In this document: in pieces, positions 11,560 through 52,719 of the stretch
How the letters are laid out: each line of letters opens with the position of its first letter
Numbering within the stretch: position 1 is the first letter of the stretch
Assembly: GCF_005771565.1 (NCBI RefSeq)
Contig: NZ_VAWA01000004.1
Coordinates: 62,001 to 126,000, forward strand
Direction: 5' to 3'
DNA: 64,000 nt
Source of the DNA: Nesterenkonia sphaerica
GTDB taxonomy: Bacteria > Actinomycetota > Actinomycetes > Actinomycetales > Micrococcaceae
Program-made: the position numbers and the translations under genes
Notes under the pieces: generated by a model
Database searches by the model: none
What the model saw: only the letters and a program-made list of their open reading frames with translations
Told to the model about the DNA's origin: nothing

Positions 11560-11578
11560 GTGGCACGATAGAGGCCAC

Positions 11579-11699
11579 GTGCTTACGGGATCGGTGCAAG
11601 TCCGAACCGGCGGTCAGAGTCCGCGACCCGGTGCCCACTGCGCCGGTTGAATCGGTGAAATTCCGGTACCGACAGTCACAGTCTGGATGGGAGTAGCAC
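11579..11699 (+). promoter_or_regulatory. FMN riboswitch (RFN element)
   Basis: The P1 stem GTGCT/AGCAC (11579-11583 with 11695-11699) closes a structure with the conserved RFN blocks: ACCGGCGGT near 11606, GTCCGCGACC, CGCCGGTTGAATCGGTGAAATTCCGG, ACCGACAGT and TCTGGATGGGAG. FMN binding normally shuts off riboflavin genes. The element ends 16 nt before the ribD start, and the ribosome site GAAGGAG (11701-11707) follows P1 directly, so control at translation is more likely than a separate terminator. No T-run terminator is seen between the aptamer and ribD. Confidence 0.95.
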
Positions 11700-11715
11700 A
11701 GAAGGAGACTGTCCA

Positions 11716-47904: not shown

Positions 47905-49050
47905 ATGAACACATACTCCTTGGCTGTCATCGGTGGTGATGGCATCGGACCCGACGTGACTCAGGCTGCTCTGGCGGGGGTCCAGGCCGCGGCAGAGCGC
48001 TATGGCTTCACGGTCCGCACCACGAGCTTCGACCTCGGCGCTGAACACTACCTGCGCACCGGCGAGGTGATGGACCGCCCCACCACGGTCGCGCTTGAGA
48101 AGCACGATGCCGTCCTGCTGGGGGCGGTCGGGGACCCCCGGGTGGCCCCGGGAATTCTCGAACGAGGGCTCGTGGTCGCCCTGCGGACAGCATTCAACCA
48201 GTCGGTCAACATCCGTCCGGTGCGCCTCTATCCCGGTGTCGAGAGCCCGGTGCGCGGCGTGACCTCTCAGAACTGCGATCTGGTGGTGGTCCGGGAGAAC
48301 ACCGAAGGGCTGTATACCGGAGGAGGGTCCCTCTCCCATGCCGGGTCAGACCGTGCGGTGGCTGTGCAGAACTCCATCACCACCGCTGGGGCCACCGCCG
48401 AGGCGGTGGAGTTCGCATTTCAGCTCGCCCAGCAACGACGCCGCCGGGTGACCCTGTGTCACAAGACCAACATTCTTGTCCATGCCGGACAGCTGTGGCA
48501 GCAGACCGTCAACCGGATCGCTGAGAGCTACCCGGAGGTGGAGCATGATTATGTCCACGCCGATGCCATGTGCCAGCACTTGCCCCTGGATCCTGGGCGA
48601 TTCGACGTCATCGTCACTGACAACCTCTTTGGCGACATCATCAGCGACCTGGGTGCTACCGTGCAGGGCGGACTGGGACTGGCCGCCAGTGCTAACTTCA
48701 ACCCCCGCGGCACGGCCCCCAGCATGTACGAACCGGTCCACGGTTCCGCGCCTGACATTGCTGGCAAAGGATGGGCCAATCCGGCCGCCGCGGCGCTCTC
48801 GGCGGCCCTGTGCCTGGCGGGACTCGGACAGCGGGAGGCCGCGTTGAGTCTCGAGGCGGCCGTGGCATCAGTGGTCGCAGAGTTGCCTGCGCTGGCCGGT
48901 CCGGAGATGGGCGCCGACACTGCTGCCTTGGGGCACCGGATTGCCCAACGCGTCGCCGAGGGCGAGCCGGTCCGGGACGGGACCGGTGAGCAGTCCCTGA
49001 TGAGCGCACTGGGCCGGCTCGCTCAGCGCGCCCACCCCATGTCCGTATAA
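47905..49050 (+). CDS. Isocitrate/isopropylmalate/tartrate dehydrogenase-family protein (LeuB paralogue)
   Basis: 381 residues. Beta-decarboxylating dehydrogenase fold: [18 protein letters not shown], then LRTAFNQSVNIRPVRLYPGV, VVVRENTEGLY, HKTNILVHAG with catalytic Lys, DNLFGDIISDLGA metal Asp residues and [18 protein letters not shown] with GGAGGG 9 nt upstream. It is divergent from the catabolic set and probably co-regulated. The substrate-specificity stretch (LVVALRTAFNQSVNIRP) differs from the [17 protein letters not shown] of the leuB in this window, so it is unlikely to be the leucine enzyme. Tartrate, malate or a 3-alkylmalate are candidates. Confidence 0.85.
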   Translation: MNTYSLAVIGGDGIGPDVTQAALAGVQAAAERYGFTVRTTSFDLGAEHYLRTGEVMDRPTTVALEKHDAVLLGAVGDPRVAPGILERGLVVALRTAFNQSVNIRPVRLYPGVESPVRGVTSQNCDLVVVRENTEGLYTGGGSLSHAGSDRAVAVQNSITTAGATAEAVEFAFQLAQQRRRRVTLCHKTNILVHAGQLWQQTVNRIAESYPEVEHDYVHADAMCQHLPLDPGRFDVIVTDNLFGDIISDLGATVQGGLGLAASANFNPRGTAPSMYEPVHGSAPDIAGKGWANPAAAALSAALCLAGLGQREAALSLEAAVASVVAELPALAGPEMGADTAALGHRIAQRVAEGEPVRDGTGEQSLMSALGRLAQRAHPMSV

Positions 49051-49070
49051 TGAGACGGGCACAGAGGGTA

Positions 49071-49102
49071 TTGACGCAGCTCACGCTGGACGAAAGTATA
49101 GG
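49071..49102 (+). promoter_or_regulatory. Candidate ilvBNC promoter
   Basis: TTGACG (49071-49076) and TATAGG (49097-49102) lie upstream of the leader peptide, with a 20-bp spacer that is long. If correct, transcription starts near 49106-49110, at the leader ATG or just before the second ATG, so the leader would be leaderless. An attenuated ilvBNC with a leader peptide lacking a ribosome site is known in Corynebacterium glutamicum. Confidence 0.5.
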
Positions 49103-49105
49103 ACC

Positions 49106-49162
49106 ATGCGCCAGATGCTAGAACTAGTAGTAGTACCCGTCATTGCCCCCGCCGGGGCATGA
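49106..49162 (+). CDS. ilvL: ilvBNC leader peptide (18 aa), too short for most gene finders
   Basis: An ORF of 18 codons, MRQMLELVVVPVIAPAGA. Leu, Glu, Leu, Val, Val, Val, Pro, Val, Ile are in a row, and the Leu and three Val codons are CTA and GTA, rare in a high-GC genome. This matches the control-codon run of a branched-chain attenuator. Translation may start at 49106 or at the second ATG (49115, 15 codons, MLELVVV...). There is no ribosome site with proper spacing. The peptide ends 39 nt before the terminator stem. It serves as a sensor for charged Leu-, Val- and Ile-tRNA, not as a functional product. Confidence 0.85.
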   Translation: MRQMLELVVVPVIAPAGA

Positions 49163-49248
49163 ACGGTCTGCTGACTCAGCACTGACGCGAACCGATCGAT
49201 CACCCCGGCACGAGGGCCCCGCACAGGGACTCCGCATCGCCGGGGTTT
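49144..49248 (+). promoter_or_regulatory. ilvBNC transcription attenuator
   Basis: Three exclusive pairings: 1:2, TGCCCC (49144-49149) with 49154-49159; 2:3, GCCGGGG (49151-49157) with 49203-49209; 3:4, ACCCCGGC (49202-49209) with 49239-49246, followed by TTTCG. The 2:3 pairing is the antiterminator, 3:4 the terminator. A ribosome stalled on the Leu/Val/Ile codons would cover segment 1 and favour 2:3 and read-through; one that reaches the stop codon covers segment 2 and favours 3:4. Confidence 0.8.
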
Positions 49249-49279
49249 CGTCTGTGTCGGGGCAGATAGGGATTGGACA

Positions 49280-51109
49280 GTGACCATGTTGACAACCACA
49301 ACAGCCGACCACCGGCTCTACGGGCCCGGAGGCAGCGCCGCGCCTGAGCAGGTGACCGGAAGCCAAGCGATCATCCGCAGCCTCGAAGAGCTCGGGGTCA
49401 CAGACGTCTTCGGCATCCCCGGCGGGGCCATCCTGCCCACCTACGACCCGCTGATGGATTCCGAGAAGCTCAACCACATCCTGGTCCGGCATGAACAGGG
49501 CGCCGGCCATGCGGCCCAGGGTTACGCCATGGCGACCGGAGAAGTCGGCGTCTGCTTCGCCACCTCCGGGCCTGGCGCCACGAACTTGGTCACCCCACTG
49601 GCAGACGCCCACATGGACTCCGTGCCTATGGTCGCCATCACCGGGCAGGTCAACGCCTCAGTCATCGGCACTGACGCGTTCCAGGAAGCGGACATCGTCG
49701 GCATCGCCACCCCCATCACCAAGCACACCTACCTGGTCACCGACGCCGATGAGATCCCCCGGGTGATGGCCGAGGCCTTCCACATTGCGTCCTCCGGCCG
49801 CCCTGGGCCGGTTCTGGTGGACATCACCAAGTCAGCGCAGACCGCCCAGACCACCTTCGCGTGGCCGCCCAAGCTCGGACTCACCGGGTACAAGCCGGTC
49901 ACCCGCGGGCATGCCCGGCAGGTGCGGGAGGCCGCCAAACTCATCGCCGCCAGCCAGCGGCCCGTCTTCTACCTCGGCGGCGGGGTCATCAAGGCAGACG
50001 CCTGCACCGAATTCGCCGCCCTCGCCGAAACCGTCGGCGCACCAGTGGTCACCACGCTCATGGCGCGCGGGGCATTCCCGGACAGCCACCCCCAGAACGT
50101 CGGGATGCCCGGTATGCACGGGAAAGTCTCCGCGGTGGCTGCGCTGCAGCAGTCCGACCTGCTCATCACCCTCGGAGCCCGCTTCGACGACCGGGTCACC
50201 GGCCAGCTGGACACCTTTGCCCCCGAGGCCAAAGTCATCCACGCGGACATCGACCCCGCAGAGATCTCCAAGAACCGGCATGCGGATGTGCCGATTGTCG
50301 GCTCCCTGAAGGAGATCATTCCTGAGCTGAACAACGCGGTGGCAGAAACCTTCGCCAAACACCAGCGGCCGGACCTCGAGCCCTGGTGGCAGCGGCTGAA
50401 CCGCCTGGTGGAGACCTACCCGTTGGGCTGGACCACCCCCGAGGACGGGGCGATCGCCCCCCAGCAGGTCATCCAGCAGCTGAGCAAAGCATCCGGTCCG
50501 GAAGCGGTCTACGTCGCTGGCGTCGGGCAGCACCAGATGTGGGCCGCACAGTTTGTCGGCTACGAACGTCCCCGGCAGTGGCTGAACTCCGGCGGGCTGG
50601 GCACCATGGGTTACTCGGTGCCGGCGGCGATGGGCGCACAGGTCGGCAACCCGGATCGGACCGTCTGGGCCATCGATGGCGACGGCTGCTTCCAGATGAC
50701 CAATCAGGAGCTGGCCACCTGCGCCATCAATAACATCCCCATCAAGGTCGCCGTCATCAACAATTCCTCGCTGGGCATGGTGCGGCAGTGGCAGACCCTG
50801 TTCTACGAGTCCCGCTATTCGAACACGGACCTCAACACTGCGCTGAACCCCTCCGGCGAGGAGGTCGTGCGTATCCCCGACTTCGTGAAGCTCGCCGAAG
50901 CCTACGGCTGCGTGGGGCTGCGCTGCGAGCGTGAGGAGGACATCGACTCTGTGATCGCCCAGGCCTTGGAGATCAACGACCGCCCAGTGGTCATCGACTT
51001 CGTGGTCTCGCGTGATTCCATGGTGTGGCCCATGGTCCCGGCCGGGGTCTCCAACAGCGATATCCAAGTGGCGCGCAATATGACCCCCGAGTGGGACGAA
51101 GAGGAGTAA
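49280..51109 (+). CDS. ilvB: Acetolactate synthase, large subunit
   Basis: 609 residues. It condenses pyruvate with pyruvate or 2-oxobutyrate using thiamine diphosphate, the first step for Val, Leu and Ile. Landmarks are [12 protein letters not shown], the catalytic Glu in [23 protein letters not shown], the FAD region and the ThDP/Mg motif [18 protein letters not shown]...NNS. The GTG start is chosen since AGGGA (49268-49272) is 7 nt upstream; the ATG at 49286 would be 13 nt away. It is preceded by the attenuator and followed by ilvN after 3 bp. Confidence 0.97.
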
Positions 51110-51112
51110 GCC

Positions 51113-52719
<1,607 letters not shown>

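Follow-up and report, generated by a model that had tools for sequence, protein, structure and literature searches.

Comparative analysis of a predicted ribosome-mediated attenuator before ilvBNC in Nesterenkonia and other Micrococcaceae

Introduction

Transcription attenuation of the ilvBNC operon has been demonstrated by experiment, including mutation, in Corynebacterium glutamicum, where the transcript is described as starting one nucleotide from the leader start codon (PMC11857589), and the Corynebacterium ilvB-II motif has been tested by reporter in Bacillus subtilis (PMC10272879). The arrangement given in these reports is a branched-chain amino acid (BCAA) leader peptide lacking a ribosome site, with CUU and GUA named as control codons, followed by an anti-antiterminator, an antiterminator and a terminator in front of ilvBNC (PMC11857589; PMC10272879). 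Attenuation of ilvB1NC in Mycobacterium tuberculosis is supported by a 2026 report (PMC13236596), and ilvB leaders with terminators were predicted in 2005 in Corynebacterium, Mycobacterium and Streptomyces (PMC1262725). The Streptomyces lividans leader peptide ilvL, MRTRILVLGKRVG up to its stop, is reported to be leaderless (PMC8079986).

Among the literature matches listed for the Micrococcaceae, including Arthrobacter and Nesterenkonia, we found no report of ilvB attenuation. Here we analyse the region before ilvBNC in a 64-kb stretch of the Nesterenkonia sphaerica genome (the window, to which all positions refer) and compare it with its counterparts across the genus and the family. The locus had been picked out in a preliminary description as an attenuator with a leader peptide, a set of mutually exclusive pairings and a terminator.

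Results

The ilvBNC locus

The element lies between a leuB-like gene, which ends at 49050, and the genes ilvB, ilvN, ilvC and serA, in that order, in a genome of 2.79 Mb and 86 contigs; its features are listed in Table 1. The best named match of IlvB is from Candidatus Nesterenkonia stercoripullorum (85% identity), with named Arthrobacter and Paenarthrobacter records next, and across the 29 other genus genomes the main ilvB matches lie at 80–95%. The leader of the stercoripullorum record is identical to that of one genus genome (G028), and the leader peptide of one Arthrobacter or Paenarthrobacter record is that of family genome G090. Rfam release 15 gave no match at gathering score at the element, with one sub-threshold match upstream of it on the opposite strand. 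Elsewhere in the window there is an FMN riboswitch at 11577–11701 (88.1 bits against a gathering score of 66.2).

Table 1. Predicted features of the ilvBNC leader region and the genes that follow, in window coordinates.
Feature	Coordinates	Strand	Basis
-35 box TTGACG	49071..49076	+	TTGAC at conserved spacing in genus and family
-10 box AAGTAT, 17-bp spacer, -12 to -7 from leader ATG	49094..49099	+	pattern conservation
Leader peptide ORF MRQMLELVVVPVIAPAGA and stop, 18 codons	49106..49162	+	start predicted to coincide with the transcript 5' end to within about one base
Control codons CTA (49118), CTA (49124), GTA GTA GTA (49127-49135)	49118..49135	+	rare-codon counts and occlusion fold
Anti-antiterminator hairpin across the stop codon	49137..49166 (49137-49149 with 49154-49166)	+	covariation in about half of the genus
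Segment B, GCCGGGG, antiterminator 5' strand, letters identical to segment D	49151..49157	+	GCCGGG in 30/30 genus genomes
Segment C, ACCCCGGC, partner of B (antiterminator) or D (terminator)	49202..49209	+	conservation, specificity
Terminator hairpin, outer stem 49202-49209 with 49239-49246	49202..49246	+	8-pair stem on 30 genus rows; own fold
Weak T-rich tail TTCGTCTG after the terminator stem	49247..49254	+	sequence
ilvB, acetolactate synthase large subunit	49280..51109 (start GTG 49280 or ATG 49286)	+	NCBIfam NF005860, 1100 bits against a cut-off of 881
ilvN, acetolactate synthase small subunit	51113..51658	+	
ilvC, ketol-acid reductoisomerase	51694..52719	+	

The leader ORF and its promoter

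Base-by-base reading confirms the BCAA leader ORF that had been claimed: 49106–49162 reads MRQMLELVVVPVIAPAGA and a stop, and the codons from 49118 are CTA GAA CTA GTA GTA GTA CCC GTC ATT. The rarity ascribed to its control codons holds as well, with CTA used for 2 of 292 leucines and GTA for 5 of 313 valines in eight genes of the window. A run of at least four CTA or GTA in six codons is found at this place only among the six frames of the 64-kb window (as eight overlapping frames, of which four are its complement read on the other strand), and at least seven Ile, Leu or Val in nine residues are encoded by 3 of the 472 ATG mini-ORFs of 8–30 amino acids.

A BCAA leader ORF precedes ilvB in all 30 Nesterenkonia genomes, a sample in which one genome (G015) is only 62% complete and ilvB matches come in pieces in two (G001 and G015). 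A DNA search recovered 15 of the 30 and the ilvB protein route recovered all of them. The automatic leader caller succeeded in 127 of 144 genomes overall and 28 of 30 in the genus, the remaining two (G008 and G022) being recognised by a motif rule; in other genera of the family a leader was called in 99 of 114 genomes.

Leader start codons were chosen without use of the promoter, and the sequence TTGAC stands 36 nt before the ATG in 21 genus genomes, 35 nt in eight and 37 nt in one. It is found 34–38 nt before the ATG in 85 of the 99 other family leaders, some of these calls being doubtful (14 have no TTGAC at that distance). Of 28 genus leaders, 26 have the -10 pattern.A...T at -12 or -13; of the 99 others, 75 have it at -12 and 22 at -13. 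A generic scan of 49000–49300 returned neither promoters nor terminators. From the spacing between TTGAC and ATG, leader translation probably begins at the transcript 5' end, the A of the leader ATG probably being the first or nearly the first transcribed base.

Rare control codons

The leaders strongly prefer rare valine and leucine codons (GTA, CTA and CTT). With related genomes counted as separate here and in all codon counts below, CTA makes up 43 of 54 leucine and GTA 76 of 118 valine codons in the genus leaders; in the ilvB genes of 28 genus genomes these two codons account for 4 of 1052 and 26 of 1599. The 99 other family leaders contain CTA and CTT in 50 and 58 of 157 leucine codons and GTA in 76 of 353 valine codons, where 24 ilvB genes from outside the genus have 4 and 19 of 939 and 35 of 1419, respectively. 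A further sample consists of 60 of 80 named records, at identities of at least 60%, in which a strict rule that misses some true leaders (e.g. L016) returned 35 leaders, 24 of them with TTGAC at 35–38 nt; GTA accounts for 36 of 96 valine and CTT for 25 of 86 leucine codons in these, compared with 31 of 1872 and 41 of 1471 in ilvB, and CTA for 2 of 86. Three valine tRNA genes (UAC, CAC and GAC) and five leucine tRNA genes (UAG, CAG, GAG, CAA and UAA) are present in the genome, each as a single copy.

It could be that CTA and GTA are not sensors, and that their AT-rich letters instead keep a leaderless start open or serve RNA pairing. A leaderless RNA is expected to lack structure around its start, and the codon run can pair with the spacer in several other genera. 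Against this, the other codons of the genus leaders have G or C as third base in 217 of 290 cases, A being preferred at leucine and valine codons and not overall, and CTA and GTA are both present in 30 of 30 genus leaders even though codon number and the place of the run vary. We consider it unlikely that these codons have no sensing role.

Pairings and terminator

The three pairings proposed earlier are all found at their coordinates: 49144–49149 (TGCCCC) with 49154–49159 (GGGGCA), 49151–49157 (GCCGGGG) with 49203–49209 (CCCCGGC), and 49202–49209 (ACCCCGGC) with 49239–49246 (GCCGGGGT). The first was drawn too short, the hairpin really reaching from 49137–49149 to 49154–49166 across the stop codon; the terminator stem stands, and the T run claimed to follow it is weak, consisting only of TTCGTCTG. 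A 7-mer with perfect complements both upstream and downstream before a T-rich tail arose in 0 of 2000 dinucleotide shuffles of 49106–49260, and such a double-complement arrangement occurs once in the window (155-base frames in steps of 50, both strands). The arrangement of leader and pairings exceeds chance.

All 30 genus genomes carry segment B (GCCGGG, mostly GCCGGGG) within the last 12–21 bases of the ORF. Segment C is CCCCGGC or CCCCGGT and segment D is GCCGGGG or GTCGGGG; B is complementary to C in 30 of 30 genomes, and the complementarity of the C arm to both B and D is likewise kept in 30 of 30. The 8-pair outer stem of the terminator is predicted on all 30 rows, with a weak T tail. Because C must fit both partners, the letters of B:C and C:D barely vary and there are no two-sided changes to count within the genus. 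Since covariation is uninformative here, support for B:C comes instead from pairing specificity, a genome's own helix averaging -18.8 kcal/mol compared with -12.1 kcal/mol when C regions of other genera are substituted (29 genomes). In the genus, the ORF end pairs no better with the spacer lacking the terminator arm than with shuffles (-18.4 versus -19.7).

About half of the genus genomes have the anti-antiterminator hairpin (15 of 30, that of the window among them). Over 12 distinct rows, 85.4% of its cells are paired and three pairs have changed on both sides, giving a covariation score of 0.128 against 0.080 for shuffled rows, reached by 3 of 500 shuffles; covariation, which the preliminary description had named as a check on all three pairings, is thus seen in this one and not in the near-invariant B:C and C:D. 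The other half of the genus has a spacer about 40 nt longer.

Two further structures were noted in the genus. In about half of the genomes the first hairpin is absent and a small one spanning the stop codon of the leader (GTGAA..TTCAC, GTGGA..TCCAC) takes its place, as in G004, G009, G028 and others (L119, L114, L115). The first 33 bases of the leader (49106–49138) can also pair with the spacer at 49163–49201, in relatives as well as in the window, and in some genomes this pairing takes in the start codon; own spacers give -22.9 kcal/mol in the genus compared with -15.3 for spacers of other genera, and elsewhere -15.2 compared with -13.5.

A translated BCAA leader might also be real and yet exert no control over termination, with regulation lying in the promoter or another element. 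Changed ilvB leader codons in Streptomyces coelicolor are reported to have had no effect (PMC1262725), and the T tail here is poor; the complementarity of C to both B and D throughout the genus, together with the absence of the triple arrangement from all shuffles, argues the other way, and we regard this explanation as improbable.

Folding with a ribosome on the leader

Ribosome occlusion was modelled by equilibrium folding of the transcript as far as the edge of D, the ribosome being taken to cover 14 bases on the 5' side of its A-site codon and 12 on the 3' side. For the window, the B:C probability is 0.02 with no ribosome, 0.98–1.0 for stalls at codons 1–11, which include all CTA and GTA codons, 0.55 at GTC12, and 0 at ATT13 and every later codon, the stop included. 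With footprints of 9–15 nt downstream, stalls at CTA and GTA remain at or above 0.91 and the stop codon at 0, only the values at GTC12 and ATT13 changing. The fold does not discriminate BCAA codons as such, as stalls at codons 1–4 also give 0.98–0.99.

Across the genus, all 30 genomes have at least one BCAA codon at which a stall gives more than 0.5, and in 28 of them the stop codon gives less than 0.05 (the exceptions being G029 with 0.25 and G019 with 0.07). The value with no ribosome is below 0.5 in only 12 of 30, the other 18, which do not include the window's genome, being predicted to be antiterminated; default termination is therefore predicted for the window's genome and not for the genus. 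Sequence, comparison and folding together establish the parts, their conservation and their mutual exclusivity.

We also considered whether rare codons are confined to places where a stall antiterminates. They make up 99 of 116 effective and 20 of 56 ineffective leucine and valine codons, but 8 of 17 and 6 of 14 once the same codon at the same place is counted once, so the idea is unsupported independently of relatedness and was dropped.

A model for the switch

We infer the transcript start, translation, termination and the amino-acid signal as follows. Judging by promoter geometry, transcription would start at or next to A49106, and a ribosome would start at the 5' end with no Shine-Dalgarno site. 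When Val-tRNA(UAC) and Leu-tRNA(UAG) are charged, the ribosome would reach the stop codon at 49160 and cover B (49151–49157), so that C (49202–49209) pairs with D (49239–49246) and transcription terminates behind the hairpin. Falling charging levels would instead stall the ribosome at the CTA and GTA codons (codons 5–10), leaving B free to capture C before D is made, and with B:C formed RNA polymerase would continue into ilvBNC. With no translation, the hairpin 49137–49166 would hide B and termination would follow, making it the predicted default in the window's genome.

It is very likely that the element is a ribosome-mediated transcription attenuator of ilvBNC as in Corynebacterium. This was the reading of the preliminary description, and the leader, promoter geometry, terminator and B:C pairing in 30 of 30 genus genomes bear it out, as does the occlusion fold, which gives the expected switch. 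That the leader is instead a metabolite- or protein-binding RNA, riboswitch-like or ppGpp-sensing, is very improbable: it is structured and unannotated, and ilvB is under ppGpp riboswitches in Firmicutes (PMC10272879), but Rfam gave no match, the ORF shows coding conservation with variable codons between, its BCAA codons match the operon, and the Corynebacterium leader is reported as unresponsive to ppGpp by in-line probing (PMC10272879).

Other genera of the Micrococcaceae

The 15 family genomes with no called leader yielded none that was convincing with other start codons; in three genera (g11, 4 of 4 genomes; g12, 4 of 4; g14, 5 of 5) none of the start codons tried gave a convincing BCAA leader ahead of ilvB. 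Under the strict rule no leader was found in 13 named records (L031, L032, L045, L046, L052, L058–L061, L063, L064, L075 and L080), which we take to be Microbacteriaceae. In some of those that lack a leader ORF, the frame before ilvB resembles the end of a longer gene, perhaps ilvD.

A permissive terminator finder, run with no shuffle control, reports a hairpin for 128 of 129 leaders. Four of these hairpins (G095, G103, G124 and G133) lie at least 120 nt from the leader, are probably not attenuator terminators, and were excluded from the helix comparisons. In the other genera, the C arm matches the ORF end no better than swapped partners do. Instead, arms containing GCGC are found at the leader end and in the spacer in 80 of 99 leaders (24 of 28 genera), forming a helix, GCGCGTGGC:GTCACGCGC, that usually ends 1–3 bases before the terminator stem and does not overlap it; examples are L136 (G047), L149 (G036) and L199 (G032). 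Since GCGC was required in the search, the helix can be tested at positions 5–9 only; 331 of the 400 cells at these positions are paired, compared with a mean of 300 and a maximum of 314 over 1000 shuffles. When each genus is represented by a single genome, 100 of 120 are paired compared with 89, and none of 2000 shuffles reached 100. Pairs change together, as in GCGCATGGC:GCCATGCGC and GCGCCTGGC:GCCAGGCGC. In some genera with an earlier-ending peptide the GCGC arm lies behind the stop codon, which speaks for a role of the RNA and not of the peptide.

In none of the 30 Nesterenkonia genomes does GCGC appear in the ORF's final 24 nt plus 6. The best helix overlaps a terminator arm by at least five bases in 29 of 29 Nesterenkonia genomes, compared with 14 of 94 others; four of these 14, all from g6, are clear cases, and several result from hairpins called too long. 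The antiterminator pairing seems to have been rebuilt in Nesterenkonia. Tentatively, the ilvB attenuator of the family may have two wirings, the Nesterenkonia leader end having been rewritten to copy the terminator 3' arm (GCCGGGG), so that one switch element would have been exchanged while the attenuator kept working, the RNA leading and the peptide changing with it; the helix of the other genera, if it is an antiterminator, would then act by crowding the terminator base and not by capturing its letters. We consider this reading quite possible without leaning towards it.

Discussion

The mechanism itself is not new; the results that stand out are the apparent rewiring of the antiterminator and how strongly the leaders prefer rare codons. 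Compared with C. glutamicum, the likeness runs through the whole order of leader and hairpins, and the earlier suggestion that the same logic operates here holds in outline. It does not extend to the antiterminator, which in C. glutamicum is described as overlapping the terminator only at a boundary GCC trinucleotide (PMC11857589), whereas in Nesterenkonia B copies the terminator 3' arm and takes the 5' arm over seven bases; the peptide also ends differently, in PAGA in the window and in RRLP in C. glutamicum. With M. tuberculosis ilvB1NC the element shares a BCAA uORF, GUA as regulatory codon, an antiterminator opposed to a Rho-independent terminator, and the operon, but the peptide is another one and the likeness is in these features, not in matched pairings (PMC13236596). 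As in S. lividans, where ilvL lies before ilvBHC with terminator-like hairpins, the BCAA leader is predicted to be leaderless; the C-terminal KRVG of ilvL (PMC8079986) resembles the KRVA found in most Micrococcaceae leaders, and the window peptide ends in PAGA. The other Micrococcaceae genera share promoter spacing, leader position, BCAA codons and terminator with Nesterenkonia and differ in that GCGCGTGGC:GTCACGCGC stands beside the terminator, whereas the Nesterenkonia antiterminator lies inside it.

The trp and leu attenuators of enteric bacteria have the same exclusion logic, with full exclusion between the 2:3 and 3:4 pairings; their leaders have a ribosome site, whereas translation in Nesterenkonia is predicted to be leaderless. 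Rare control codons are a further likeness to the enteric leu leader, in which CUA raises sensitivity; theory holds that tRNA supply relative to use is what counts, and that plain rarity is an oversimplification (PMC1183508).

These results would extend leaderless ilvB attenuation from Corynebacterium, Mycobacterium and Streptomyces to the Micrococcaceae, and they provide 129 leaders for comparison. The preference for rare codons yields a prediction, open to testing, as to the tRNAs through which high-GC bacteria perceive starvation. If the two wirings are real, the promoter, leaderless start, terminator position and rare valine and leucine control codons stayed the same, and the other genera pose the question of how a non-overlapping helix beside the terminator could prevent termination; Nesterenkonia would then exemplify a new antiterminator pairing fitted into an otherwise unaltered switch.
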